From contig NZ_OY782498.1 of the NCBI RefSeq assembly GCF_963677845.1, forward strand, positions 816,001 through 880,000: a DNA stretch of 64,000 nt. Reading direction: 5' to 3'. The stretch is from an uncultured Pseudodesulfovibrio sp. (lineage in GTDB: Bacteria > Desulfobacterota > Desulfovibrionia > Desulfovibrionales > Desulfovibrionaceae). Shown here in pieces: positions 19,247 through 64,000 of this stretch. How positions within the stretch are numbered: position 1 is the first letter of the stretch; the number at the start of each line of letters is the position of its first letter. Made by a program: the position numbers and the translations under genes. The notes under the pieces are model-generated. The model searched no databases, was not told the DNA's origin, and saw nothing but the letters and a program-made list of their open reading frames with translations.

Positions 19247-20680
19247 ATGTCCCGCTACGAAACCGTCATCGGTCTTGAGATTCACGCACAACTCAAGACC
19301 AAGACCAAGATTTTCTGTTCCTGTTCCACTGAATTTGGAAAGGACCCCAATGAGAATGTATGCGCAGTCTGTTCCGGCATGCCCGGCGTTTTGCCCGTAC
19401 TCAACGAGAAGGTAGCCGAATACGCGACCAAGATGGGTTTGGCTATTAATTGCGAGATCAATCTCAAGTCCATATTTGCGCGTAAGAACTACTTTTATCC
19501 CGACCTTCCTAAAGGCTATCAGATTTCCCAGTTTGAACTGCCCATTTGCGAACACGGGCATGTGGATATCGAAGTAGACGGCGAAAAGAAACGTATCGGT
19601 GTGACGCGTATTCACATGGAAGAGGACGCAGGGAAGAATATTCACTCTGCGGCTGATAACGCCAGCTTTGTAGATTTGAACCGGACCGGCGTACCGCTTA
19701 TCGAAATCGTATCCGAGCCGGATATGCGGAGTGCCGAAGAAGCTATTGCTTATCTCAAGGAAGTTCGATCCGTTCTCCTTTATCTCGGTATTTGCGATGG
19801 TAATATGGAAGAGGGCAGTTTCCGCTGTGATGCGAATATTTCCGTTCGTCCCTATGGGCAGGAAGAGTTCGGAACTCGTGCGGAGTTGAAGAACCTTAAC
19901 TCTTTCAAGCATATCCTCAAGGCCATCGATTACGAAGTTGATCGTCAGATTGATCTCGTTGAAGAGGGAGAAAGCGTGGTGCAGGAAACTCGACTTTTCA
20001 ACGTGGACAAGGGGATTACTCAGTCCATGCGTGGCAAGGAAGAGGCACACGATTATCGTTATTTCCCGGACCCGGACCTTGTCCCGTTGGTTCTTGATGA
20101 AGCGTGGGTTAAACAGTGGCGGTCCGAACTGCCCGAGTTGCCCCGTGACAAACGTGAACGGTTCATGACGGAGTATGCGCTGGCCGATTATGATGCGGCA
20201 TTGATCACCACGGATCGAACTGTGGCTGAATATTTTGAAGCTGCAGTCAAGGCGTATGGCGGTAAAGCCAAGAAGGTCACCAACTGGGTGGTCGGTGAAT
20301 TGCTGCCGTTTTGTCATGAGGTTGAGTCTGAAGCCTGCGATGTAAAGCTTTCGCCCGAAAAGCTGGCTGCTTTGCTCAAGCTGGTTGATGACGGCACCAT
20401 TTCCGTCAAGATTGGTAAGGATATTTTCCGTGATCTTTGTGAGTCCGGTGACGATCCGGCAGAATATGTCAAGGCCAAAGGGCTTGCGCAGATGTCTGAT
20501 TCCGGCGAACTGGAAGCCATGGTCGATCAGGTTATCGCTGACAATCCGTCTGAAGTGGAAGCATTCAAGGGCGGCAAGAAAAAGCTTATGAGCTTTTTCA
20601 TGGGACAGGTCATGCGTCTTTCCAAAGGTCAGGCCAACCCCGGCATCGTGACCAAGATGATTCAAGAAAAACTCTCATAA
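19247..20680 (+). CDS. gatB: Asp/Glu-tRNA(Asn/Gln) amidotransferase subunit GatB
   Basis: GatB is the kinase/transamidation subunit of GatCAB, which turns Glu-tRNA(Gln) and Asp-tRNA(Asn) into the correct aminoacyl-tRNAs. The 477-residue protein begins [20 protein letters not shown], the family hallmark, with [19 protein letters not shown] (zinc-binding Cys residues) and [19 protein letters not shown]. The tail domain (GatB/YqeY type) occupies the last 140 residues with [20 protein letters not shown]. Full length. gatA and gatC are not in the window. Confidence 0.97.
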
Positions 20681-52262: not shown

Positions 52263-52570
52263 GACGGTATCCTGGGCGGTTAAGCCATACCCGGCTAAGG
52301 TGGCGGGCTATTTAACTGTGTCGAATGGATGTGTCGTGGAAGGACGTATCGGGACCATTCTGAGGTCGTTTTTCAGCGTTTGAGAATGCTTACTACATAA
52401 GGATTGTGCGTAAGTCAAAGCCCGTGGTTTGGGCTTATGGATTCAACGTGTCCTAAAGATTTTGATGCTTTCTTATGATTCTTTTGACGGTATGTGTCGG
52501 TAACCATAAATGAATAGTATTTTTTGTTTTCCGACAAAACTGGAATGGTGGATTTGTTTTTCTTGATGCT

Positions 52571-52587
52571 TTCCAGTTTTTTTGGAA
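52571..52587. promoter_or_regulatory. Dyad TTCCA-N7-TGGAA, candidate response-regulator site (copy 1)
   Basis: TTCCA (52571-52575), 7 bases, TGGAA (52583-52587). The same dyad recurs at 58461-58477 in front of dmsA. This copy ends 71 bp before the GG of a sigma-54-like element in front of the FmdE-like gene. Confidence 0.55.
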
Positions 52588-52657
52588 ACTCAGAAGGAAA
52601 AGGTGAAATGATGTTATCTAATAGTTTAGAATGAAAGGGATTTTAATTATTTACGGT

Positions 52658-52673
52658 TGGTATGGTCTTTGTA
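52658..52673 (+). promoter_or_regulatory. Weak sigma-54-like promoter before the FmdE-like gene
   Basis: TGGTATGGTCTTTGTA has GG (52659-52660) followed 10 bases later by GT instead of GC. Three bases deviate from the consensus, so the call leans on position and on the dyad at 52571. Confidence 0.35.
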
Positions 52674-52719
52674 ATAGCTCGTTCATCATATTAACGAGAA
52701 TGTTATCAAGAGGTATATC

Positions 52720-54390
52720 ATGGTGAAGAGCGATGTTTTTGAAAAAGAAGTCTATCGGACAGTTGGCCAACATACATTTGAAGAGTTTATTGAGATGGCC
52801 AGTTTGTTTCATAATTATGCTGCACCCGGGCTGCTCATAGGTGGATATATGGTTGCCGAGGCCCAACAGTATATGCCGGAAGGAACACTGTATGAGGCTA
52901 TTTCGGAAACATCATGGTGTTTGCCTGATGCCATTCAGATGATGACGCCATGCACGGTTGGCAACGGCTGGATGCGTGTCATGAATTTCGGGCTGTACGC
53001 AATGAGCCTTTATGACAAGTTTACCCGCGAAGGCGTCAGGGTTTGGCTTGATCTTGAGAAAATTCCGCATGACTCCGAAATTCGGACATGGTTTTTGAAG
53101 ACCAAAGCAAAACAGGATCAGGATTCTGAATTGCTCCGTCACCAGATAGGCATGGCCGGAGCTGATATTTTGTCTGTTGAGAAAATTACCTTGAATCGAA
53201 GCCTATTGGTCAAGCGGAATAAGGGTAAAATCTCGGTGTGTTCTGTGTGTGGCGAGGCTTATCCTTCCGCTCATGGTCCGATATGTCGTTCATGTCGTGG
53301 GGAATCTCCCTACGAAGGAAATTTGAAAGCCGAGTCTACCATCTTGTACCCCCTCCCCAAACAGGTCCGCAAAATAGGCGCAGAAGGGGCGTTGGGTAAA
53401 AAAGTGGTTCATGACATGACCCAGATTATTCCCGGTACGGACAAGGGCGCGGCTTTCAGGAATGGACAGACCTTTGATGTCGGCGATCTTTGTCGACTTC
53501 AGCAGATGGGGAAAAACAATGTTTTTGTGCAGGATGAGGAACTTGATGAACAGTGGGTGCATGAAGATGATTGTGCACGGAGTTTTGCCGAGGCCATGGC
53601 TGGGAAGGGCATCGCGCCAAGGGAAGATCCTCATGAGGGCAAGGTGACGCTTAAGGCGGAACACGATGGACTCTTGTTTGTCGATACCCACCGATTGAAG
53701 GCGTTTAACTTGGCTCCGGGCGTCATGGCAGCGAGTCGGAAAGGATGGACATTGGTTCGGAAAGGGGCTGAGATTGCAGGGACACGAGCCATTCCATTGT
53801 ACATGCAGCGCGATCAGTTCGAGTGTGCGCAGGATGTACTTACGGCTGGACCGATTTTTGAAGTCCTGCCTTTGAAGCAAGCAAAGGTCGGTATTCTGAT
53901 TACAGGCAATGAGGTTTTTAACGGAACGATCGAAGACCGTTTTGAAGAGATCATTCGTGCCAAATTGACGGCCTTCAATTGCTCGGTATACAAGGCCGTA
54001 TTGGTCCCTGATGATCGTGAAGTCATTCGCGTTGCAGCCTTGGAAATGCTTGAAGGTGGATGTGATTTGATCATTACGACAGCCGGCCTTTCCGTGGACC
54101 CTGATGACGTGACTCGACATGGCTTGGTTGATGCCGGAGCTCATTCCCTGATATACGGTGCGCCGATTCTTCCAGGGGCAATGACCTTGATCGGAAAAAT
54201 CGGTTCTGCACGATTGCTTGGAGTTCCCGCTTGTGCCCTGTTTTTCCAAAGAACAAGCCTTGACCTCCTGTTGCCGCGCCTTTTGGCCGATGTAGATATT
54301 TCGCGAAATGATTTAGCGGAAATGGGTGAAGGCGGTATGTGCCTTGGATGTACCAATTGTACTTTCCCCAAGTGTCCGTTTGGTCGATAG
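52720..54390 (+). CDS. FmdE domain fused to a molybdopterin-binding domain
   Basis: 556-residue cytosolic protein. Residues 15-170 are an FmdE domain (HNYAAPGLLIGGYMVAEAQ; CLPDAIQMMTPCTVGNGWMR with the conserved Cys pair). A zinc-ribbon-like piece follows (CSVCGEAYPSAHGPICRSC near 170-190). The middle and C-terminal part (about 320-535) resembles MoeA/MogA-type molybdopterin-binding domains: VGILITGNEVFNGTIEDRFE, IITTAGLSVDPDDVTRHG and YGAPILPGAMTLIGKIG. The end has CLGCTNCTFPKCPFG, which may hold a cluster or zinc. A role in molybdopterin cofactor handling for the DMSO-reductase-type enzyme downstream is plausible but unproven. It is first in an operon with the two-component system. Confidence 0.75.
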   Translation: MVKSDVFEKEVYRTVGQHTFEEFIEMASLFHNYAAPGLLIGGYMVAEAQQYMPEGTLYEAISETSWCLPDAIQMMTPCTVGNGWMRVMNFGLYAMSLYDKFTREGVRVWLDLEKIPHDSEIRTWFLKTKAKQDQDSELLRHQIGMAGADILSVEKITLNRSLLVKRNKGKISVCSVCGEAYPSAHGPICRSCRGESPYEGNLKAESTILYPLPKQVRKIGAEGALGKKVVHDMTQIIPGTDKGAAFRNGQTFDVGDLCRLQQMGKNNVFVQDEELDEQWVHEDDCARSFAEAMAGKGIAPREDPHEGKVTLKAEHDGLLFVDTHRLKAFNLAPGVMAASRKGWTLVRKGAEIAGTRAIPLYMQRDQFECAQDVLTAGPIFEVLPLKQAKVGILITGNEVFNGTIEDRFEEIIRAKLTAFNCSVYKAVLVPDDREVIRVAALEMLEGGCDLIITTAGLSVDPDDVTRHGLVDAGAHSLIYGAPILPGAMTLIGKIGSARLLGVPACALFFQRTSLDLLLPRLLADVDISRNDLAEMGEGGMCLGCTNCTFPKCPFGR

Positions 54391-54406
54391 GAAGATTGTA
54401 CGACGT

Positions 54407-56986
54407 ATGAAACGAGTATTCGGATTTATCCTGTGTGCCTGCATGGTGTTGGTGACATTTTCCTGTACCCCGCTTGATGGGCAGACTCCACTTACGGCTG
54501 AAGAACGGGAATGGATTGAAAAAAACAAGGAGATACCGCTCGGTGTCTCCTTGCATTATCCTCCGTATGAAGAGTTTGGTTTGAAGGGTGGATATCAAGG
54601 GCTGAGTGCTGACTATATCCGTTTGATCAATGAAAAAACGGGTCTAAAGTTTGTCCCATTACGGTTCAGGAATCGGGATGAAGTCCTCGCAGGAATCAAG
54701 AGGGGCGAGATCTCTGTTGTCGCCGCTCTTGAAATGACGGATGAACGTCGTAATTTTCTTGATTTCACTCAACCTTATGTGAATGTTCCGGCTGCTATAA
54801 TAACTCGGAAGGAATTCAAGGGAGAGCTTTCTCTTGAAAAACTGGATGGCATGAGAATCGGTGTTACTGTTTCACCGGAGTTTATCAGCTATCTGGAAAA
54901 GTATTTTCCGGGAGATTATACAGTCGTTACCATGGCTGGTGGGTATATCGGCGGCTTGCGTTCTTTGGCGGTCGGCGATGTTGATGCCTTGATCTGCGAC
55001 ATGGCGCTTGCTTCCCGATATATAGCCAATGCTCGTATCAGTAATCTGCGAATAGCCGGTATTTCCAGTTATACGATTGATTTGCGAATAGCCTCGCTCA
55101 AGAGTCAGCCCATAGTGGGGCAGATTCTGAGAAAAGGGCTTGCCATGATTCTTCCCCATGAACGTAAGACCATTGAAGAAAAATGGTTAACCTTGCACTA
55201 CCGACCAATTTGGGCCAGTTGGACTTTTTGGCTGGGATTGCTGGGTGTTCTTTGTCTGGTCTTTGGTGGAATTGTTCTTGTTTTGTTTTGGAATCGCAGC
55301 CTCAAGCGTCAAGTTGCTCAAAGAACCATGGCCTTAAGTTCCATCAACAAGGTTTTGCTCGGAGCATTGGATTGTCACACCGAGCGAGAGGTTATGTTGC
55401 GCTGTTTGCAGGAAGCAAAAACGATGTCTTCAAGTGAGCGGGCTTTTCTCGGTGAAGTTGAACAAGTCGGTTCAATCAAGGTTTTGCTTGCAACGGAAGG
55501 AGGGGCGGATTGTCCTGAATGGGATTGTGCCGAGTTTGAAAGTGTTGTTCTTGAAGGCGAGCAATTGGATCGTCTGGCTGGTGGAAACGTCGTGAATCTG
55601 TCAATTGGTGAAGACAGAAAGAGCCTTCCCCATTTGATTGTAGTGCCGTTGCAGATTCTTGCGGGTGCTAATATGAAAATCATTGCGGTTGCCCGGAGAC
55701 AAAGCAGGTACGTGTCCAATGAAGTTTTGATGTTGGCAGAAGTCTTGTTTGCTTTTGAAGAAGCCTTGCAGCGCAAACGAACCGAGATATCACTGCATGA
55801 GAAGGAACGACAGCTTCAACGAGTCCAGCGTATGGAAGCCCTTGGTACGCTCGCTGGCGGTATTGCACACGATTTCAATAATATACTCGGTGTTATTATT
55901 GCCAATGGCGAAATGATAGAAATGTTTCATATGGATGTTGATAAAACCGTTCATCCAAAAATCCGGGCTATTCTTGCGGCAGCGTATCGAGGCCGTGATT
56001 TGGTGAATCAAATTTTGACTTTCACGAGAAAAAGTAATGATGAGGCCGCTGTATTGAATGTTGGGCCTATTCTCAAGGAAACCGTTAAATTCCTGCAATC
56101 CTCGTTGCCAGCTTCCATTACAATTGAATATGCGATTGATTCCCCTGAATCGACAGTGTTTGTTGATCCTACCCAGATGCATCAGGTTTTGATGAATTTA
56201 TGTACCAACGCAGCCCATTCGATGGAAAGCAAGGGGGGAAATCTTCATCTTTCCTTGCGTTCAGGCCAAGTGAATCCCCATCAGGTCGGGGCGCAAACCC
56301 TTGAGTCGGGAGCGTATTTGATTCTCGAGGTGCGGGATACTGGAAGTGGTATTAAACCAGAGTTGATGGATCGTCTTTTTGATCCGTTTTTTACGACGAA
56401 AGAGCCGGGGAAAGGGACAGGTCTTGGTTTATCCGTGGTTCAGGGAATCGTGAAATCATGGGGAGGCGAAGTGTTGGTTAAGAGCACCCTTGGAAAGGGT
56501 TCTCTTTTTCAAGTGTTTATACCGGCCAGAAGAGAGAACGGGGAACAGCCTGTGCAACTTGGAAGTGGGGGAGAAATATCCAAGGGAACAGGGAGTATTT
56601 TGTTTGTTGATGATGAAGAAGAGTTGGTTAGATCCTGTTCGGAATTCCTTGCAAACCTTGGATATAAGGTCCATGCGGAGACAGACAGCCGGGCTGCATT
56701 GGAGTTGTTTAGCAATGCTCCAGAGAAGTTTGATCTTGTCATAACGGATTACAATATGCCGGGATTGAGTGGAGATGCCCTTGCCCGGAAGATTCTTGAG
56801 AAAAAACCAACTGTTCCAATCATTGTTTGCAGTGGGTACAGTCAAAGTTTTGATGAGGGCACCGCAGCGTCTCTGGGCATAATGGAATATCTCAAAAAAC
56901 CAATCAGTCTGAAAATGCTGGCCTTGGCCGTACGGAAATATTTGCGGCCTGATCTTGAAGAAGAAACGCATGAGTTCATGGAGTAG
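54407..56986 (+). CDS. Hybrid sensor histidine kinase with periplasmic solute-binding domain
   Basis: 859-residue kinase. A lipoprotein-like or uncleaved signal segment (1-20) leads to a periplasmic SBP_bac_3 domain (about 40-262). Visible sequence is IPLGVSLHYPPYEEFGLKGG and LDGMRIGVTVSPEFISYLEK. A transmembrane helix (about 268-292) follows, then a GAF-like region, a HisKA domain with His488 in GGIAHDFNNILG, a HATPase domain and a C-terminal receiver with Asp781 in VITDYNMPG. No Hpt domain is seen. The binding domain suggests direct sensing of a small solute. Start ATG 54407 follows GGAAG; the upstream frame lies inside the FmdE gene. Confidence 0.88.
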   Translation: MKRVFGFILCACMVLVTFSCTPLDGQTPLTAEEREWIEKNKEIPLGVSLHYPPYEEFGLKGGYQGLSADYIRLINEKTGLKFVPLRFRNRDEVLAGIKRGEISVVAALEMTDERRNFLDFTQPYVNVPAAIITRKEFKGELSLEKLDGMRIGVTVSPEFISYLEKYFPGDYTVVTMAGGYIGGLRSLAVGDVDALICDMALASRYIANARISNLRIAGISSYTIDLRIASLKSQPIVGQILRKGLAMILPHERKTIEEKWLTLHYRPIWASWTFWLGLLGVLCLVFGGIVLVLFWNRSLKRQVAQRTMALSSINKVLLGALDCHTEREVMLRCLQEAKTMSSSERAFLGEVEQVGSIKVLLATEGGADCPEWDCAEFESVVLEGEQLDRLAGGNVVNLSIGEDRKSLPHLIVVPLQILAGANMKIIAVARRQSRYVSNEVLMLAEVLFAFEEALQRKRTEISLHEKERQLQRVQRMEALGTLAGGIAHDFNNILGVIIANGEMIEMFHMDVDKTVHPKIRAILAAAYRGRDLVNQILTFTRKSNDEAAVLNVGPILKETVKFLQSSLPASITIEYAIDSPESTVFVDPTQMHQVLMNLCTNAAHSMESKGGNLHLSLRSGQVNPHQVGAQTLESGAYLILEVRDTGSGIKPELMDRLFDPFFTTKEPGKGTGLGLSVVQGIVKSWGGEVLVKSTLGKGSLFQVFIPARRENGEQPVQLGSGGEISKGTGSILFVDDEEELVRSCSEFLANLGYKVHAETDSRAALELFSNAPEKFDLVITDYNMPGLSGDALARKILEKKPTVPIIVCSGYSQSFDEGTAASLGIMEYLKKPISLKMLALAVRKYLRPDLEEETHEFME

Positions 56987-56996
56987 GAGTTGATAT

Positions 56997-58415
56997 ATGG
57001 CCAAAGTCTTGGTGATAGATGACGATCGCATGATATGTGATGCGCTCATGGAGTTGATTCGAAATATTGGGCATGAAGCGGATTACGCATCAAGTGTTCA
57101 GGAAGGGTTGGAAAAGAATCTGGCTGAAGAATTTGATGTGGTTTTTTTGGATATCAGACTTCCTGACGGCAACGGGTTGGATATTTTGCCACAACTCAGG
57201 GAGCTTCCTATTCCGCCTGAGGTTATTATCCTCACAGGCCTTGGTGATCCCGATGGCGCTGAGTTGGCCATACGAAACGGAGCGTGGGATTATTTGCAAA
57301 AACCGCTTTCTCCCAAGAAGATTCTGCTTCCGTTGCAGCGGGTGCTCAAATACCGGGATACATTGCGGAATGAAGGACATAATCAATTTTCTCTCAAGCG
57401 GTGTGGCATCGTCGGCAGCGGTCCTGCCATTACTCATGCCTTGGAGCGTTTGGGGGCGGCGGCGCACAGTGATGCGAGCCTGCTTCTCACGGGTGAAACT
57501 GGAACGGGAAAGGAACTGTTTGCGCGTGCTCTTCATGAAAACAGCAAGAGGAGCCAAGGTCCTTTCGTGATTGTCGACTGTGCTTCAATTCCGGCTAATC
57601 TGTTGGAAAGCACACTGTTTGGTCACGTCAAAGGGGCTTTTACCGGAGCGGATCGTTCAAGCTGTGGGTTGGTTCTTGAGGCGCATGGCGGCACTCTTTT
57701 CCTTGATGAAATAGGGGAAATGCCACTTCCTTTGCAGAAGAAATTGCTCAGGGTTTTGCAGGAACGCAAATATCGTCAGGTGGGCGGAAGTCAGGAAGTC
57801 AGCAGTAACTTCCGACTGGTCGCAGCCACGCATCGAGATTTGAATGAGATGGTCCAGAAGGGGCTTTTTCGCAATGACCTGCTGTATCGACTGGGAGCCA
57901 TGACTATCAACCTCCCCGTATTGCGTGAGCGTAAGGAGGATCTGGGCGAACTGACTCAGCATTTTGCACGGTATATCTGCGAGAAAAATGCAATTCCTCC
58001 CAAGACATTTTCTGATGATTTTATGGAAACTCTTGCCCGGTATGATTGGCCGGGCAACATTCGTGAGCTGGTCAACGTTCTTGAGAATGCAATGATCAGC
58101 GCTTACGGCCACACTGAATTATTCGCGAAGCATCTACCGGAGCGGACACGTATCGCAATGTTGAAACATGATCTTGTTTCGAACGAAGATTCATATTCCA
58201 ATACCGATTTGACCGAAACTCAAACAGAAGAGTGCGGTACTTTGCCTTCGTATAAAGAATACCGTGGGCATGTTTTGGAGCAGGCCGACAAGAGTTATTT
58301 CACCCGCCTGATGGAAGCTTCGTGTTGGGACATAGAACGTGCCTGTACGATCTCGGGATTGCGGAAAAGCCGGGTGTACGATCAGCTCAAGCAGTACGGC
58401 ATAGAGAAAGAATAG
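56997..58415 (+). CDS. Sigma-54 dependent response regulator (NtrC family)
   Basis: 472-residue activator. The receiver domain has DDD at 8-10 and phospho-acceptor Asp52 in VVFLDIRLPDGNG. The AAA+ domain has Walker A GETGTGKE, the sigma-54 contact KGAFTGA near 212 and Walker B GGTLFLDEIG. A Fis-type helix-turn-helix ends the protein (CWDIERACTISGLRKSRVYD). It follows the hybrid kinase by 10 bp and is transcribed toward dmsA. Candidate target dyads precede both the FmdE-like gene and dmsA. Confidence 0.93.
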   Translation: MAKVLVIDDDRMICDALMELIRNIGHEADYASSVQEGLEKNLAEEFDVVFLDIRLPDGNGLDILPQLRELPIPPEVIILTGLGDPDGAELAIRNGAWDYLQKPLSPKKILLPLQRVLKYRDTLRNEGHNQFSLKRCGIVGSGPAITHALERLGAAAHSDASLLLTGETGTGKELFARALHENSKRSQGPFVIVDCASIPANLLESTLFGHVKGAFTGADRSSCGLVLEAHGGTLFLDEIGEMPLPLQKKLLRVLQERKYRQVGGSQEVSSNFRLVAATHRDLNEMVQKGLFRNDLLYRLGAMTINLPVLRERKEDLGELTQHFARYICEKNAIPPKTFSDDFMETLARYDWPGNIRELVNVLENAMISAYGHTELFAKHLPERTRIAMLKHDLVSNEDSYSNTDLTETQTEECGTLPSYKEYRGHVLEQADKSYFTRLMEASCWDIERACTISGLRKSRVYDQLKQYGIEKE

Positions 58416-58417
58416 CT

Positions 58418-58434
58418 TTCCAGACTTTTCGGAG
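58418..58434. promoter_or_regulatory. Degenerate dyad TTCCA-N7-CGGAG upstream of dmsA
   Basis: TTCCA (58418-58422), 7 bases, CGGAG (58430-58434). The right arm matches TGGAA at three of five positions. It lies 43 bp from the better dyad, about four helical turns, so two dimers could bind on the same face. Confidence 0.35.
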
Positions 58435-58460
58435 TGGGTTGTCCAAAAGAGTTGGTCCCT

Positions 58461-58477
58461 TTCCAGATATGTTGGAA
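58461..58477. promoter_or_regulatory. Dyad TTCCA-N7-TGGAA, candidate response-regulator site (copy 2)
   Basis: TTCCA (58461-58465), 7 bases, TGGAA (58473-58477), 62 bp before the -24 GG of the dmsA promoter candidate. The flanking AAAAGAGT/ACTCTTTT arms (58445-58452, 58481-58488) could also form a terminator for the upstream operon. Confidence 0.55.
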
Positions 58478-58538
58478 TTGACTCTTTTTGTATGTGCTCA
58501 AATTCACGTAGTAGATTGTTTTTATTTATATTTTTTCA

Positions 58539-58554
58539 TGGCACAGTTGTTGAT
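58539..58554 (+). promoter_or_regulatory. Sigma-54-like promoter of the dms operon
   Basis: TGGCACAGTTGTTGAT has a perfect -24 TGGCAC and correct 10-base spacing, but the -12 is GA in place of GC. The predicted start is about 55 bases before the dmsA ATG. Confidence 0.5.
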
Positions 58555-58619: not shown

Positions 58620-61058
58620 ATGGGTAAGAAGGAATCTGAGAAAACCCCTGTAGAAGGGCGGCTTGGAAGACGTAAATTCCTGAAATGGAGTGCCGCGCTC
58701 GGTGGGGTGACAGCCCTGTCGGGAACCGGTGTTTTTTATGGTCTTCGGTCTGTTGAGAGCGCTGAACCATTCGCCGATAAGGTTGTTTGGACATCCTGCA
58801 ATGTGAACTGCGGCAGCCGATGTGCCTTGCGGGCTTTTGTAAAAGATGGCGTGGTCACCCGTGTCGAAACAGACGACAAGGGCGAAGATATTTATGGCGA
58901 TCATCAGGTTCGTGCTTGTTTACGGGGTCGCTCAATGCGCCACCGTATTTATGCGCCGGATCGTTTGAAGTACCCCATGAAGCGTGTGGGCAAACGTGGT
59001 GAAGGCAAGTTCGAGCGTATTTCCTGGGACGAGGCTTTGGATGGAATCGCAAAGAGTCTGGGCGATACTATTGAGAAGTGGGGCAACGAGTCCGTATATC
59101 TGAATTATGGCACCGGCAACCTTGGCGCAGTCATGTCCAAGTCCTGGCCGACTGGCTCCACTCCTGTTGCCCGCCTCATGAACTGTTTGGGCGGCTACCT
59201 CAATCAGTATGGAACGTATAGTGACGCACAGATCGACATGGCGTTGCCGTATACCTTTGGTAAGGGGTGGGTTCGTGGCAACCTCTTGTCTGACATCGTC
59301 AACAGCAAGTTGGTCGTGTTGTTCGGCAACAATCCCGCTGCCACACGTATGAGCGGTGGTGGTCTTGTGCACGATGTGATTCAGGCCAGAAAAAAAGGGT
59401 ATGCGCGGATTATTGTCGTTGATCCTCGTTTTACGGATACAGCCACAACATTGGCTGATGAATGGATTCCCATCCGTCCGGGAACCGATGCTGCTTTGGT
59501 TTGCGGTCTGGCCCATGTGATGATTTCCGAAAATCTGGTTGATAATGATTTCATCAAGCGGTGTACCGTCGGCTATGATGAAGATTCCATGCCTGAAGGC
59601 GTGCCTGCCGGTAATTCTTACAAGTCTTACATTCTGGGCAAGGGTAAGGATGGGCAGGCAAAGACACCGGAATGGGCTTCGAAGATTACGGGTATTCCCG
59701 TTCGCCGTATTGTTCAGCTTGCTCGTGAAATTGGTCAGGCAGAGCCTTGTTATATTTCTCAGGGTTGGTCCGTACAACGTCAGGCCAACGGAGAAAACAA
59801 CTGTCGTGCCATCAGCATGTTACCTATCCTTACAGGGAATGTGGGAGTGCAGGGCGGTAACACCGGCGCCCGTGAGAGTGGGTATGGAATCCCGTTTGCT
59901 CCTTTCCCGGTTCTTGAAAATCCAGTCAAGACATCCATATCCTGCTTTACCTGGACCGATGCCATTGAACGCGGCACGGAAATGACCGCGAAAAGAGATG
60001 GTGTGCAGGGACGTGATCGTCTGGAAGCACCTATCAAGTTCATTTGGAACTATGCTGGCAACTGTCTTGTGAATCAGCATTCAGACAGCAATCGGACATC
60101 GGAAATTCTTGCTGATGACAGCAAGTGTGAAACCGTTGTAGTCGTGGACAACTTCATGACGCCAAGCGCCAAATTCGCTGATTACCTTTTGCCTGCGACT
60201 TCAAATCTTGAAGAGGATGATTTTGCCCCGCAAGGTTTTGCATCGGAAATGGGCTATGTCGTTTTTGCAGAAAAAGTCATTGAGCCGCTTTTTGAAAGCC
60301 GTACCATTTTTGATATCTGTGCAGGCGTTGCCAAACGTCTGGGTGCGGAACAGAAGTACACTGAAGGGCGGACCCGTGCGCAATGGGTTGAATATGTCTA
60401 TCAGAAGTCCCGCGAAAAATTGCCCGAGCTTCCCGCCAAGCTTGAGGATGCCTTTGCCATGGGACTGTATAAGCGGGAAAAGCCCGGTTTGCCTCCAGTT
60501 CCTTACAAGGAATTCCGTGATGATCCAGAAGGTCATCCTTTGAAAAGTCCTTCCGGTAAATTGGAAATCTTTTCCAAGCAGCTTTGGGACATCGCTCATG
60601 ACTGGGAACTCGCCGAAGGCGATGTTATCTCCGGCCTTCCGGAATACGCTCCTACTTGGGAAGGTGTTTCCGACCCCTTGAAAAAGGAATTCCCTCTGCA
60701 ATTGATCGGTCATCATTACAAACAACGTACACACTCCACGTACGGCAATGTGGACTGGCTGAAAAAAGTCGCGCCACAGGAACTTTGGATTAATCCCATG
60801 GATGCCGAAGAACGGGGCATCGTCCACGGTGGAAAGGTCAAGGTCTTCAACGCTCGGGGCGTGGTTTACACCACGGCCAAGGTCACACCCCGCATCATGC
60901 CAGGTGTTTTGACCCTGCCTGAGGGGGCTTGGTTTGATCCGGGCAAAGATGGAGCCGACCACGGTGGCTGTGTAAACGTTCTGACGACACTTCGTCCTTC
61001 ACCGTTGGCAAAGGGGAATCCCCAGCATACCAACCTTGTACAGGTCGAAAAGGCGTAA
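58620..61058 (+). CDS. dmsA: DMSO-reductase-type molybdopterin oxidoreductase, catalytic subunit
   Basis: 812-residue precursor with a Tat signal (RRKFLK at residues 17-22), so it is exported folded. A [4Fe-4S] site has C60, C64, C68 and C100, followed by LRGRSMRHRIYAPDRLKYPM and KRVGKRGEGKFERISWDEA, the DmsA pattern. The segment SKSWPTGSTPVARLMNCLGG, with GTYSDAQI close after, fits the DmsA active-site region. It probably reduces DMSO or a similar S- or N-oxide, or acts in reverse on an unknown substrate. It is followed by dmsB, dmsC and a TorD-like chaperone. ATG 58620 follows GAGGA; a GTG at 58584 is less likely. Confidence 0.88.
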   Translation: MGKKESEKTPVEGRLGRRKFLKWSAALGGVTALSGTGVFYGLRSVESAEPFADKVVWTSCNVNCGSRCALRAFVKDGVVTRVETDDKGEDIYGDHQVRACLRGRSMRHRIYAPDRLKYPMKRVGKRGEGKFERISWDEALDGIAKSLGDTIEKWGNESVYLNYGTGNLGAVMSKSWPTGSTPVARLMNCLGGYLNQYGTYSDAQIDMALPYTFGKGWVRGNLLSDIVNSKLVVLFGNNPAATRMSGGGLVHDVIQARKKGYARIIVVDPRFTDTATTLADEWIPIRPGTDAALVCGLAHVMISENLVDNDFIKRCTVGYDEDSMPEGVPAGNSYKSYILGKGKDGQAKTPEWASKITGIPVRRIVQLAREIGQAEPCYISQGWSVQRQANGENNCRAISMLPILTGNVGVQGGNTGARESGYGIPFAPFPVLENPVKTSISCFTWTDAIERGTEMTAKRDGVQGRDRLEAPIKFIWNYAGNCLVNQHSDSNRTSEILADDSKCETVVVVDNFMTPSAKFADYLLPATSNLEEDDFAPQGFASEMGYVVFAEKVIEPLFESRTIFDICAGVAKRLGAEQKYTEGRTRAQWVEYVYQKSREKLPELPAKLEDAFAMGLYKREKPGLPPVPYKEFRDDPEGHPLKSPSGKLEIFSKQLWDIAHDWELAEGDVISGLPEYAPTWEGVSDPLKKEFPLQLIGHHYKQRTHSTYGNVDWLKKVAPQELWINPMDAEERGIVHGGKVKVFNARGVVYTTAKVTPRIMPGVLTLPEGAWFDPGKDGADHGGCVNVLTTLRPSPLAKGNPQHTNLVQVEKA

Positions 61059-61071
61059 GGGAGACTGATTG

Positions 61072-61692
61072 ATGTTAAAAAGACCTGCATTTTATTTTGA
61101 TATGGAAGCATGCACGGGATGTAAAACGTGCATGATCGCCTGCATGGATAAGAATGATCTCCCTGATGGCGTTCTTTTCAGGCGTGTCACCGAGTATGCT
61201 GGCGGCGATTGGATGAAAGACAAAAACGGTGCATATGAACAGAACGTATTCGCCTATTACCTGTCTGTTTCATGCAACCATTGCGAGAATCCCATTTGCG
61301 TCCGTTCATGTCCGACCACGGCCATGCACAAGGATGAAAATGGTATCGTCAGCGTCGATCACGACAAGTGTGTTGGCTGTCGTTATTGCGAATGGGGTTG
61401 TCCCTATTCCGCCCCGCAGTACAATGCCCAAAAGGGCAAGATGGAAAAATGCGACTTCTGTCGTGATTATCTGGAACAGGGTAAGCCTCCGGCGTGTGTG
61501 GCTGCATGTCCCACTCGTGCTCTTGAGTTTGGAGAATATGAAGATTTGGTCGCCAAACATGGAGCTTCTCAAGTTGTCGCTCCGTTGCCTGACCCGTCTA
61601 TTACATATCCCAACTTGATTGTTTCGGCTAATCGCAATGCGCAACCCGCCGGTTCCCGTCTTGGTAAAATTCAAAACCCTGAGGAGGTGTAA
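61072..61692 (+). CDS. dmsB: DMSO-reductase-type electron-transfer subunit (four [4Fe-4S])
   Basis: 206-residue iron-sulfur subunit with the DmsB Cys groups CTGCKTCMIAC, CNHCENPICVRSC, CVGCRYCEWGC and CDFC followed by CVAAC. It links the catalytic subunit to the membrane anchor. The ATG at 61072 (with a TTG one codon before it) follows GGGAG, 13 bp after dmsA. Confidence 0.92.
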   Translation: MLKRPAFYFDMEACTGCKTCMIACMDKNDLPDGVLFRRVTEYAGGDWMKDKNGAYEQNVFAYYLSVSCNHCENPICVRSCPTTAMHKDENGIVSVDHDKCVGCRYCEWGCPYSAPQYNAQKGKMEKCDFCRDYLEQGKPPACVAACPTRALEFGEYEDLVAKHGASQVVAPLPDPSITYPNLIVSANRNAQPAGSRLGKIQNPEEV

Positions 61693-61694
61693 CA

Positions 61695-62570
61695 ATGCTC
61701 TTTAATGAATGGAGTCTGGTCATTTTCACCATCCTCGTACAAACCGCAATTGGTATGTTGTTGGTGTCTGAAGTCGCGCGGGTTATTTCGCCGTCTTCTG
61801 TCAGCAAGAGCTTCTCGTGGCAGCTTCCGACAATCAGTCTGGTGACGGGTGCTTCCTTGTTGTTTTCCTTAGGACATCTTGGGACCCCGATGCACAGTGT
61901 CTATACGATACTCAACGCAGGTTCTTCATGGTTGAGCCGTGAGATCCTTGCCACTGGAGGCTTTTTTGTCTCGGTTGTGGCTTTGGCCGTCATTCGCATG
62001 AAGACGCCGGAAGCCAAGGCGACCGGAGTCTCTGTGGCCGCCAGTATTCTGGGGCTTGTCACTGTGTTCGTCATGTCCAGAGTATACATGCTGCAAACCG
62101 TACCGGTATGGGACAGCATTTCAACCATGCTGGGCTTCTATGGCACCATGTTGATTCTCGGTTCCATTGCGGGCGGCGTGCTGTTTGGCATTCAGGCCAA
62201 CAAGGGCGACGAGCTTGAAAAAGGCGATCATATCCGTATTGCCGGTGCATTCATTGTTGCGGCCATACTGGGGTTGGGATTGAAGTTTATAGGCATACCG
62301 CTTGATATGATTTCCCTTGATGCAACGAATAATCTGGGCGTTTCCGGTATTGATATACTGACATCGGGAGGAACTTTCCTGTTCGTTGCCTGTGTCGCAT
62401 TGACCTTTTTGGGAACGACAGTGTTTGCATGGGGTGTCTACAAGATTATTGCATCGAATGAAATGAGTGCCATGACCAATATCAGCCTGTGCGCCTTTGG
62501 GCTTGTACTTGCTGGTGAGATTGTCGGTAGGCTCATGTTCTACGGTACTTATCTTCGAATCGGACTGTAA
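61695..62570 (+). CDS. dmsC: DMSO-reductase-type membrane anchor subunit
   Basis: 291-residue integral membrane protein with about eight hydrophobic helices and no signal peptide. It starts MLFNEWSLVIFTILVQTAIG, the DmsC opening. It would oxidise menaquinol and pass electrons to dmsB. GAGGTG precedes the ATG, 2 bp after the dmsB stop. Sequence in the C-terminal half is poorly conserved, as is usual in this family. Confidence 0.88.
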   Translation: MLFNEWSLVIFTILVQTAIGMLLVSEVARVISPSSVSKSFSWQLPTISLVTGASLLFSLGHLGTPMHSVYTILNAGSSWLSREILATGGFFVSVVALAVIRMKTPEAKATGVSVAASILGLVTVFVMSRVYMLQTVPVWDSISTMLGFYGTMLILGSIAGGVLFGIQANKGDELEKGDHIRIAGAFIVAAILGLGLKFIGIPLDMISLDATNNLGVSGIDILTSGGTFLFVACVALTFLGTTVFAWGVYKIIASNEMSAMTNISLCAFGLVLAGEIVGRLMFYGTYLRIGL

Positions 62571-62581
62571 TATACAAATAT

Positions 62582-62606
62582 GGCCCGAGGAGTAATTCCC
62601 TCGGGC
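62582..62606 (+). other. Hairpin between dmsC and the TorD-like gene
   Basis: GGCCCGAG and CTCGGGCC, perfect 8-bp arms with a loop of about 9 bases, followed by TTTGG. It could be a partial terminator or an RNA processing signal that lowers chaperone expression relative to dmsABC. An ATG at 62580 is at its base. Confidence 0.5.
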
Positions 62607-62618
62607 CTTTGGAAAATC

Positions 62619-63257
62619 ATGGAAACATCAGATACATATTTTGCTGCGGCCATAGTATGCGCTTTTTTCGGCAGAGTCTTTTCGCACGACCCGGAAAAAG
62701 AATTCATTTCTCAGGTTCGTGATGAAAACCTTTTGGAAGAATGGCCGCTGGAAACATCCGTTGAAGATAAGGCCTCTCTTGACCTGCTGACCTCCTGTAT
62801 TGCCGATCTTGATGAGCAGGGAATGGCCCTTTTGCAGGATGATTACAATGCGTTGTTCATTATTCCTGATTCCGCTGTACCAGTGTGGGAATCCGTATGG
62901 ACGACCAAGGAACGGCTCCTTTTTGGTGACCCTACATTTGCAGTGCGTGAGGCGTACGCCCGTTACGGGGTTGTTGCGCCCAAGTTGAACAATGAACCGG
63001 ACGACCATATCGGCTTGGAGCTGGATTTCATGGCTCGTTTGTTCGCCTTGTCAGCAGATGCGATGGAGGCGGGCGATACCGTCAAAGCTGATAAGTGCGC
63101 CGAAGATGCCAAATCTTTTTATCAGGATCATTTTGGGAAATGGGCAAAGGATTGTCTGGTGGAAATAGAATCAAAATCGGTCACGGAGTATTACACCTCA
63201 ATGGCCCGACTGTGCATGAGTATGGTGGATTCTTTGCCCCGGATATTGGCTCAATAA
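62619..63257 (+). CDS. TorD/DmsD family chaperone
   Basis: 212-residue all-helical protein of the redox-enzyme chaperone family that guards Tat-exported molybdoenzymes until the cofactor is inserted. Visible: LQDDYNALFIIPDSAVPVWE and the acidic EPDDHIGLELDFMARLFALS, matching the E-P-x-D-H-x-x-x-E-L-x-F pattern of TorD. ATG 62619 is chosen over ATG 62580 because the intervening bases form a hairpin. The gene lies directly after dmsC, so DmsA is its likely client. Confidence 0.88.
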   Translation: METSDTYFAAAIVCAFFGRVFSHDPEKEFISQVRDENLLEEWPLETSVEDKASLDLLTSCIADLDEQGMALLQDDYNALFIIPDSAVPVWESVWTTKERLLFGDPTFAVREAYARYGVVAPKLNNEPDDHIGLELDFMARLFALSADAMEAGDTVKADKCAEDAKSFYQDHFGKWAKDCLVEIESKSVTEYYTSMARLCMSMVDSLPRILAQ

Positions 63258-63276: not shown

Positions 63277-64000
63277 ATGCCGTACCAACCGTTTTTTACG
63301 GAAAGCACATGTCTTCGGTTCAAGGGGGGAGAGTGCTCTTTGTGCGCCGATGTGTGTCCTTCTAAGGCAATTTCTTTTGCTGATAGTCCGTGTTTTGTCG
63401 GAGATATTTGTCTGGCATGTGGTGCTTGTGCTGCGGTTTGTCCTGTTGATGCGGTGACGCATAATGCAGCAGGGCGTCTCCTGAAAAAAATCACCTCTCT
63501 CTGTCCAACTGTTACCATTTCTGTGGGGTGTTTTGCCATCCCCTTTGCCCCTGAGGAAATGGTACAGTTGGATGGTTGCCTTTCTACTCTCGGGATGGAT
63601 GTTTTGGCGGCTTTGGCCCTTGTTGATGTTAAAACCCTTCGATTTGTGCACGGCGATTGTGAGAAATGTCCAAAGGGCGATCATTGCAGATTATTTGCCA
63701 GAACCTTGGATGCGTTTCGTCTGACATGTCCTGCCGTTTCTGCAAAAATGTACTGTGTAGAGAAAAAGACCTCTCGCCAAACGAGTGCAAACACCATGTC
63801 ACGGCGTGGGCTGTTCAATATGTTCGGTTCGCGGAAAGAGGCCGTGTCCGCTCAAGTGAATGCCGATAAGTCGGTGCTTTTACAGACCCATACGACTGGT
63901 TCCAAACGACTCCGGTTGCATACGGCATTTCGTTTGTTGTCGTGTTTAGAGCATGTGCCCGAATCTGTGCGAATTGCAGAGATGGAAGTCGTTCAATCCT
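63277..64000 (+). CDS. Ferredoxin-like [4Fe-4S] protein, partial (cut by window end)
   Basis: Open frame of 241 codons continuing past the window. The N-terminal part has CLRFKGGECSLCADVCPSKA and CLACGACAAVCPVDAV, two 2x[4Fe-4S]-type motifs near residues 12-60. Later Cys groups are CFAIPF and CEKCPKGDHC near residues 128-137. The rest is basic and has no recognised domain. It probably serves the dms complex as electron carrier or maturation factor; no firm function. It begins 19 bp after the TorD-like gene without a clear ribosome site. Confidence 0.65.
   Translation, partial: MPYQPFFTESTCLRFKGGECSLCADVCPSKAISFADSPCFVGDICLACGACAAVCPVDAVTHNAAGRLLKKITSLCPTVTISVGCFAIPFAPEEMVQLDGCLSTLGMDVLAALALVDVKTLRFVHGDCEKCPKGDHCRLFARTLDAFRLTCPAVSAKMYCVEKKTSRQTSANTMSRRGLFNMFGSRKEAVSAQVNADKSVLLQTHTTGSKRLRLHTAFRLLSCLEHVPESVRIAEMEVVQS

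Follow-up and report, generated by a model that had tools for sequence, protein, structure and literature searches.

Gene content of the locus

We analysed a 64,000-nucleotide stretch of the genome of an uncultured Pseudodesulfovibrio sp. (the window; positions 816001–880000 of a 3.70-Mb contig) in which genes for an FmdE–MoeA fusion, a hybrid sensor kinase and an NtrC-type response regulator stand directly ahead of a dimethyl sulfoxide (DMSO) reductase-type operon, and in which copies of the dyad TTCCA-N7-TGGAA precede both groups of genes. An initial reading of this DNA from its letters alone (the original prediction) placed the fusion, sensor, regulator and reductase operon in one regulon, a proposal supported below by conservation of the dyad at orthologous promoters. 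Coordinates count from the first letter of the window, and the features given lie on the forward strand. The cluster opens with fmdE (52720–54390), whose upstream neighbour is divergent and whose 556-residue product joins an FmdE domain, a zinc finger and a MoeA-like (MoCF) part (Pfam PF02663, PF23475 and PF00994). The hybrid sensor kinase gene follows at 54407–56986, this start codon being chosen within an open reading frame (ORF) that opens at 54326; Pfam and orthologue conservation assign to its product a signal sequence ending in a lipobox-like Cys, a Venus-flytrap domain (SBP_bac_3), HisKA and HATPase domains and a receiver. The regulator gene (56997–58415, 472 residues) encodes a receiver (PF00072, residues 4–110), a sigma-54 AAA+ domain with its lid (PF00158 and PF25601), with GAFTGA present in the translation, and a putative Fis-like helix-turn-helix (HTH) recognized in alignment; against the NtrC equivalog model it scores 356 bits, under the cut-off of 559.

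All three subunits of the DmsABC family are present downstream. The Tat-type catalytic subunit of the molybdopterin S-oxide/selenate reductase family (dmsA, 58620–61058) is supported by Pfam and reaches 1206 bits against TIGR02166 (cut-off 778), the four-cluster ferredoxin-type subunit (dmsB, 61069–61692) exceeds the cut-off of TIGR02951, and the membrane anchor (dmsC, 61695–62570) matches Pfam PF04976 and no NCBIfam model. A TorD/DmsD-family chaperone gene (62580–63257; PF02613) and a gene for a 4Fe-4S protein (63277–64000; Pfam), which extends beyond the window end, complete the cluster. The domains named originally for FmdE, the hybrid kinase with its periplasmic binding domain, the NtrC-type regulator and DmsA, DmsB and DmsC are thus confirmed by Pfam and NCBIfam.

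Tandem dyads upstream of sigma-54-like elements

At fmdE, the exact proximal dyad TTCCAGTTTTTTTGGAA (52571–52587) is preceded at 42 bp by a distal copy with one mismatch, TTCCGACAAAACTGGAA (52529–52545), which relatives keep 40–44 bp from the proximal dyad, and is followed after 70 bp by a sigma-54-like −24/−12 element, TGGTATGGTCTTTGTA (52658–52673), identified by score and column conservation. The dmsA dyads lie past the stop codon of the regulator gene: a weaker distal copy, TTCCAGACTTTTCGGAG (58418–58434), stands 43 bp before the exact proximal dyad TTCCAGATATGTTGGAA (58461–58477), and a sigma-54-like element found by score, TGGCACAGTTGTTGAT (58539–58554), lies 61 bp past the latter. Scanning the genome revealed a third exact dyad about 400 bp past the window end, at what would be position 64401, ahead of torC-, torD- and torA-like genes; the sigma-54 element of this torC promoter is TGGTATCCATCTTGCT. 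The two window dyads had been described as identical over 17 bp; both are exact and their arms are identical, but the 7-bp spacers differ (GTTTTTT versus GATATGT). The weaker copy reported 43 bp ahead of the second dyad is present, its counterpart 42 bp ahead of the first had been overlooked, and the sigma-54-like elements originally placed 63–72 bp after the dyads lie near that range. Across genomes, the −12 element is TTGC at torC, whereas most promoters of fmdE, the kinase gene and dmsA have TTGT or TTGA and so deviate from consensus in a conserved way.

The main weight of the dyads comes from position and conservation, not from window-wide rarity. Seven matches with at most one mismatch occur in the window against 3.94 expected, a count reached by 16 of 100 shuffles, and a further exact dyad at 19324 lies inside a gene. 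Genome-wide there are 17 exact dyads, compared with six for the reversed control: 12 are inside long ORFs, two are intergenic elsewhere and three are in promoter regions of this cluster (fmdE, dmsA and torC). Base shuffles of the fmdE upstream region produce TTCCR-N7-YGGAA in 16 of 20,000 trials, and those of the gap between the regulator gene and dmsA in 11 of 20,000. A genomic dyad at 1385245 resembles a terminator because it comes after an ORF that by eye is adk-like and stands ahead of a T-run, and this likeness, together with the position of the dmsA dyads behind a stop codon, would suit a reading of the dyads as transcription terminators or RNA hairpins instead of protein sites. We rejected that reading as highly implausible: the stem has just 5 bp around a 7-nucleotide spacer, the sites form tandems of fixed spacing ahead of first genes, 60–120 bp before sigma-54 elements, and the fmdE promoter has them though its upstream neighbour is divergent.

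Co-occurrence of dyads and regulator

Among 36 Pseudodesulfovibrio genomes, that of the window included, the regulator has an orthologue in 12 (61–100% identity; next matches at most 54%). The same 12 carry dmsA (E ≤ 1e-200), and six of them, with none of the other genomes, carry torA (E ≤ 1e-150). The tandem pattern TTCCR-N7-YGGAA-N23-28-TTCCR-N7-YGGAA is found once each, at the locus, in 11 of the 12 genomes that carry the regulator and in none of the 24 without it (reversed control 0; Fisher p = 2e-8, relatedness not corrected for); the exception, G023, has a pair of dyads at a distance of 44 bp, each with one mismatch. The pair precedes fmdE in seven genomes, the kinase gene in three (G021, G026 and G034) and torC in one (G019). 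Only this tandem form and the combination of dyad and sigma-54 element discriminate genomes with and without the regulator, as single dyads number 2–17 per genome in the former and 1–11 in the latter. Searching 327 genomes of the order yielded the tandem pattern in 12, the sole one outside the genus being G312; we dismissed this match as chance, as its arms are TTCCG/CGGAA, the fetched 12 kb hold no target or regulator gene and no regulator was found at E ≤ 1e-145. A separate intergenic exact dyad, TTCCAAACCCCTTGGAA, at G000:C1:2965040 (L017:1041) recurs in G008 and G009 and lies some kb from dsr-like genes (by eye); a simple pattern search found no close sigma-54-like element there, and it may be an unrelated site.

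Inspection of orthologous promoters, suggested in the original prediction, located the dyad in 34 of 41 target upstream regions from the 12 genus genomes and G235, G084, G226, G094 and G269, some start codons being set by homology. In these regions TTCCR-Nk-YGGAA (the R/Y dyad at k = 7) yields 46 sites in the 34 targets at k = 7 and four matches in total, all at k = 11, over k = 1–6 and 8–18; three arm controls give none. The pairs have a spacing of 40–44 bp in most promoters of fmdE, the kinase gene and dmsA, and one arm is often imperfect; at torC, four genomes show two outer sites separated by 40 bp that enclose a weaker one. An alignment of nine fmdE promoters gives identities to the window of 81–87% for two close relatives and 41–53% for six; the TTCC/GGAA arms and TGGYAY-N5-TTG are kept in all nine, the outer dyad of G269 being misplaced by the aligner. 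The fmdE gene of G021, inverted and moved, still has its own dyad, as does a duplicated dmsABC in G029.

Blind scanning of the 36 genus genomes for a dyad with a sigma-54 element, in two scans, placed 18 of 19 and 20 of 23 matches at target promoters (38 of 42); the 24 genomes lacking the regulator contributed two of the 42, and the reversed controls gave one match each. The four non-target matches (G011, G016, G019:C6 and G028:59514, the last inside dmsA) were counted as misses; three lie inside ORFs, and that of G011 starts just past the stop codon of a different regulator (32% identity). The candidate regulon is larger than first proposed, with torCDA as a third target and sites also at unlinked genes in G035. 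There, torCDA lies about 1 Mb from the regulator; its torC dyad is at −193 and its element at −72 (−192 and −71 in the genome of the window). A second dmsA, some 1.7 Mb distant from the regulator, has both a dyad and a sigma-54 element, and the geometry at these two targets is almost that of the window genome.

The dyads could instead be sites of another factor, either a different sigma-54 activator or a global regulator, with the local regulator controlling something else. Such factors are not scarce, as a first look found 109 NtrC-like candidate stretches in the genome, three with matches at E ≤ 1e-100; we nevertheless judge this explanation improbable, first because the tandem pattern tracks the presence of the regulator (11 of 12 versus 0 of 24). 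It also fails to follow genes of the same kind: eight 20-kb stretches that surround other FmdE fusions (L058–L065; G032, G009, G015, G022, G000 and G010) contain no exact dyad or pair, four of them having single one-mismatch matches only (in L063 as many as three, widely separated), and no R/Y dyad lies upstream of DmsA-like paralogues (49–51% identity) in G026, G034 and G021. Finally, site and regulator differ together in the distant genomes G233 and G156, which have a regulator of 55–58% identity and the gene order fmdE–kinase–regulator–torCDA with no dms genes. Their dyad is GTCCA-N7-TGGAC (TGGAG once) before fmdE and torC, in four of four regions at N7, with spacings of 1–6 and 8–18 yielding nothing and no further match on the same strand of the two 20-kb stretches; the recognition helix reads GRSRLYSLLK in these two and xKSR(V/L)YxQ(L/V) in the other 17 of 19 orthologues.

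Several observations weigh against assigning these sites to the regulator and to sigma-54 promoters. The assignment rests on co-occurrence and on a covariation of motif and helix that involves two genomes only, the 12 genomes are not independent because G000, G008 and G009 are close relatives, and no Pfam HTH family matches the regulator at E ≤ 1e-3. Seven of the 41 targets have no R/Y dyad (the kinase gene in G235, G084 and G094; dmsA in G023, G021, G084 and G226), with near matches at both G084 targets and at dmsA of G023. The dmsA genes of G021 and G226 lie close behind the regulator and show no sigma-54 element by score; they may be co-transcribed with it. A sigma-54 score of at least 14.5 is reached in 36 of 44 targets and at 17 places in the window, which makes an element on its own weak evidence, and the −12 element at fmdE and dmsA is mostly not the consensus TTGC. 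The names torC, torD and torA denote best-scoring models, all below curated cut-offs: torC reaches 371 bits against TIGR02162 (cut-off 478), and TorA, scored on a 684-residue piece of its 824-residue open frame, reaches 658 bits against TIGR02164 (cut-off 1465) and 828 against the bisC family (cut-off 1018). On balance, the sequence evidence makes it very probable that the NtrC-type regulator binds the tandem dyads and activates sigma-54 promoters of its own fmdE–kinase–regulator operon, dmsABC and torCDA.

Regulator, sensor and candidate signal

Further regulators at 42–51% identity, in G082, G163, G227 and G137 and twice in the window genome, stand in other gene contexts and were set aside as paralogues. 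In G082 (L123, reverse strand, 218–255), TTCCGATTTTTTTGGAA occurs just upstream of a regulator of 49–50% identity in a different gene context. The kinase retains an H-box, ATPase and receiver and has no HPt match in Pfam at E ≤ 1e-3, so direct phosphotransfer from kinase to regulator is likely. In structure and fold comparison its flytrap domain is closest to RmcA and to VFT2 of BvgS; the sensor model is of moderate quality (predicted local distance difference test, pLDDT, 78.5), and the fold search returned relatives and no ligand. The domain occurs at E ≤ 1e-50 in three of 395 genomes drawn from the phylum, that of the window included, all three in the same family. Its mean column identity, 81% versus 72% for the whole kinase, is above average, as if the ligand were fixed. 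The Asp matched in RmcA is invariant among orthologues, while the Arg of RmcA, BvgS and EvgS has as its counterpart R in six, L in seven and N in one of 14, in a domain otherwise very conserved; we take these two positions to have a role in the flytrap domains of those proteins. This pattern weakly suggests a ligand without an amino-acid carboxylate. A lipobox-like Cys ends the signal sequence in 16 of 19 kinase orthologues (absent in G269, G233 and G156), so the kinase may be a lipoprotein. Close to its start, the kinase gene of G023 (L067) is broken by a frame change, which may be real or an artefact of sequencing.

Our guess is that the signal is an S- or N-oxide, such as DMSO or trimethylamine N-oxide (TMAO). 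A working regulon that answers to something else, be it selenate- or tellurate-type oxyanions, another S- or N-oxide, molybdate status or a redox cue, is a substantial possibility, somewhat below an even chance. The scores of DmsA are nearly equal against DMSO and selenate models (1206 versus 1176 bits for YnfE and 1157 for the DmsA-exception model, the latter two under their own cut-offs), sequence does not distinguish a DMSO from a selenate-type substrate, and the sensor fold is of the amino-acid-binding type seen in RmcA and BvgS VFT2. Pointing the other way, in G233 and G156 orthologous regulators adjoin torCDA where dms is lacking, and torCDA-like genes form the third target, which makes S/N-oxide-type reductases the common denominator; the variable Arg position also speaks, weakly, against an ordinary amino acid.

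FmdE–MoeA fusions

The N-terminal domain of the fmdE product matches the FmdE-like structure PDB 3d00 and the C-terminal part matches MoeA chains. Several paralogues occur per genome; in the window genome one adjoins a formate-dehydrogenase-like operon and another lies near dsr-like genes (by eye). Given the MoeA-like domain, the putative co-regulation and the paralogue beside the formate-dehydrogenase-like operon, the fusion probably serves these bis-molybdopterin guanine dinucleotide enzymes as a dedicated molybdenum-cofactor factor. There is precedent in Methylorubrum for a MoeA dedicated to one enzyme (PMC13197769). No full-length fmdE lies beside the regulator in four of the 12 genus genomes (G019, G023, G026 and G034), so the gene is not strictly needed there. 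At L062:10419-15691, a second FmdE–MoeA fusion adjoins a ModE-like ORF and a formate-dehydrogenase-like operon (by eye), whose catalytic reading frame falls into two parts, perhaps because of a selenocysteine codon.

Proposed mechanism

We propose that the membrane-bound hybrid kinase would sense a periplasmic signal through its Venus-flytrap domain and phosphorylate the adjoining NtrC-type regulator. Regulator dimers would then bind TTCCA-N7-TGGAA dyads, usually two placed about four helical turns apart (40–44 bp), and the AAA+ oligomer would open sigma-54 RNA polymerase at elements 60–120 bp downstream. Predicted targets in the window genome are the fmdE–kinase–regulator operon, dmsABC with its chaperone and ferredoxin genes, and torCDA. 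As a member of the fmdE operon, the regulator gene would be activated by its own product (positive autoregulation), and activation would thus reinforce itself. A more specific version, which we put forward tentatively and consider rather doubtful, is that a one-piece, lipobox-anchored kinase binds TMAO or DMSO directly and induces two S/N-oxide reductases together with a dedicated FmdE–MoeA insertion factor, and that site and recognition helix changed together between lineages.

If true, cofactor supply would be part of the substrate response. Independently of that version, the proposed regulon offers a cis code that can be tested and names a regulator for respiration of the DMSO/TMAO type in sulfate reducers. 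It also ties the FmdE–MoeA fusion family, so far unexplained, to specific molybdenum enzymes, making its function testable. Sulfate reducers are among the dmsA carriers reported for saltmarsh sediments in which DMSO reduction was studied (PMC10689795). Our literature search, which covered open-access sources and left subscription papers and RegPrecise-type databases outside its scope, found neither an account of this regulon nor sigma-54 control of DMSO/TMAO-type reductases.

Comparison with known systems

The fmdE product resembles the FmdE and MoeA families in its 3d00-like N-terminal domain and MoeA-like C-terminal part and differs from them as a single fusion with several paralogues per genome. 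The regulator shares the domain layout of NtrC, which acts from tandem dimer sites upstream of a sigma-54 promoter. Two putative dimer sites upstream of a sigma-54 promoter recur here, with a different dyad (TTCCA-N7-TGGAA), a spacing of 40–44 bp and other targets.

A functional parallel is the TorT–TorS–TorR system of torCAD, in which TorT is a separate binding protein and TorR is an OmpR-type regulator that works without sigma-54. Here, by contrast, kinase and binding domain, the latter of the BvgS/RmcA type, form one protein, the regulator is NtrC-type with a sigma-54 AAA+ domain in place of the OmpR type, and dmsABC and fmdE are included. The kinase scores 130 bits against the TorS equivalog TIGR02956 (cut-off 676.5), with a match only in residues 550–856. 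What the locus is predicted to share with the system of E. coli and Vibrio is a hybrid kinase with a periplasmic substrate-binding module in control of TMAO reductase genes (PMC10662104). As judged from sequence, it is TorTSR-like in purpose and not a TorTSR member, because regulator class and sensor differ.

In architecture the locus corresponds to sigma-54 regulons of Desulfovibrio vulgaris Hildenborough, where an NtrC-type regulator is encoded beside its targets, its site lies upstream of sigma-54 promoters and the regulon is small, most comprising 1–4 operons (Kazakov 2015, PMC4641369). The targets differ, being S/N-oxide-type reductases and an FmdE fusion here; figure logos and supplements aside, the main text of that study contains none of the terms FmdE, dms, molybd, TTCCA and TGGAA, and a term search of Rajeev 2011 (PMC3333781) gave no match. 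Taking the D. vulgaris regulons as that main text describes them, the regulon proposed here fits their sigma-54 activator type, with different targets.

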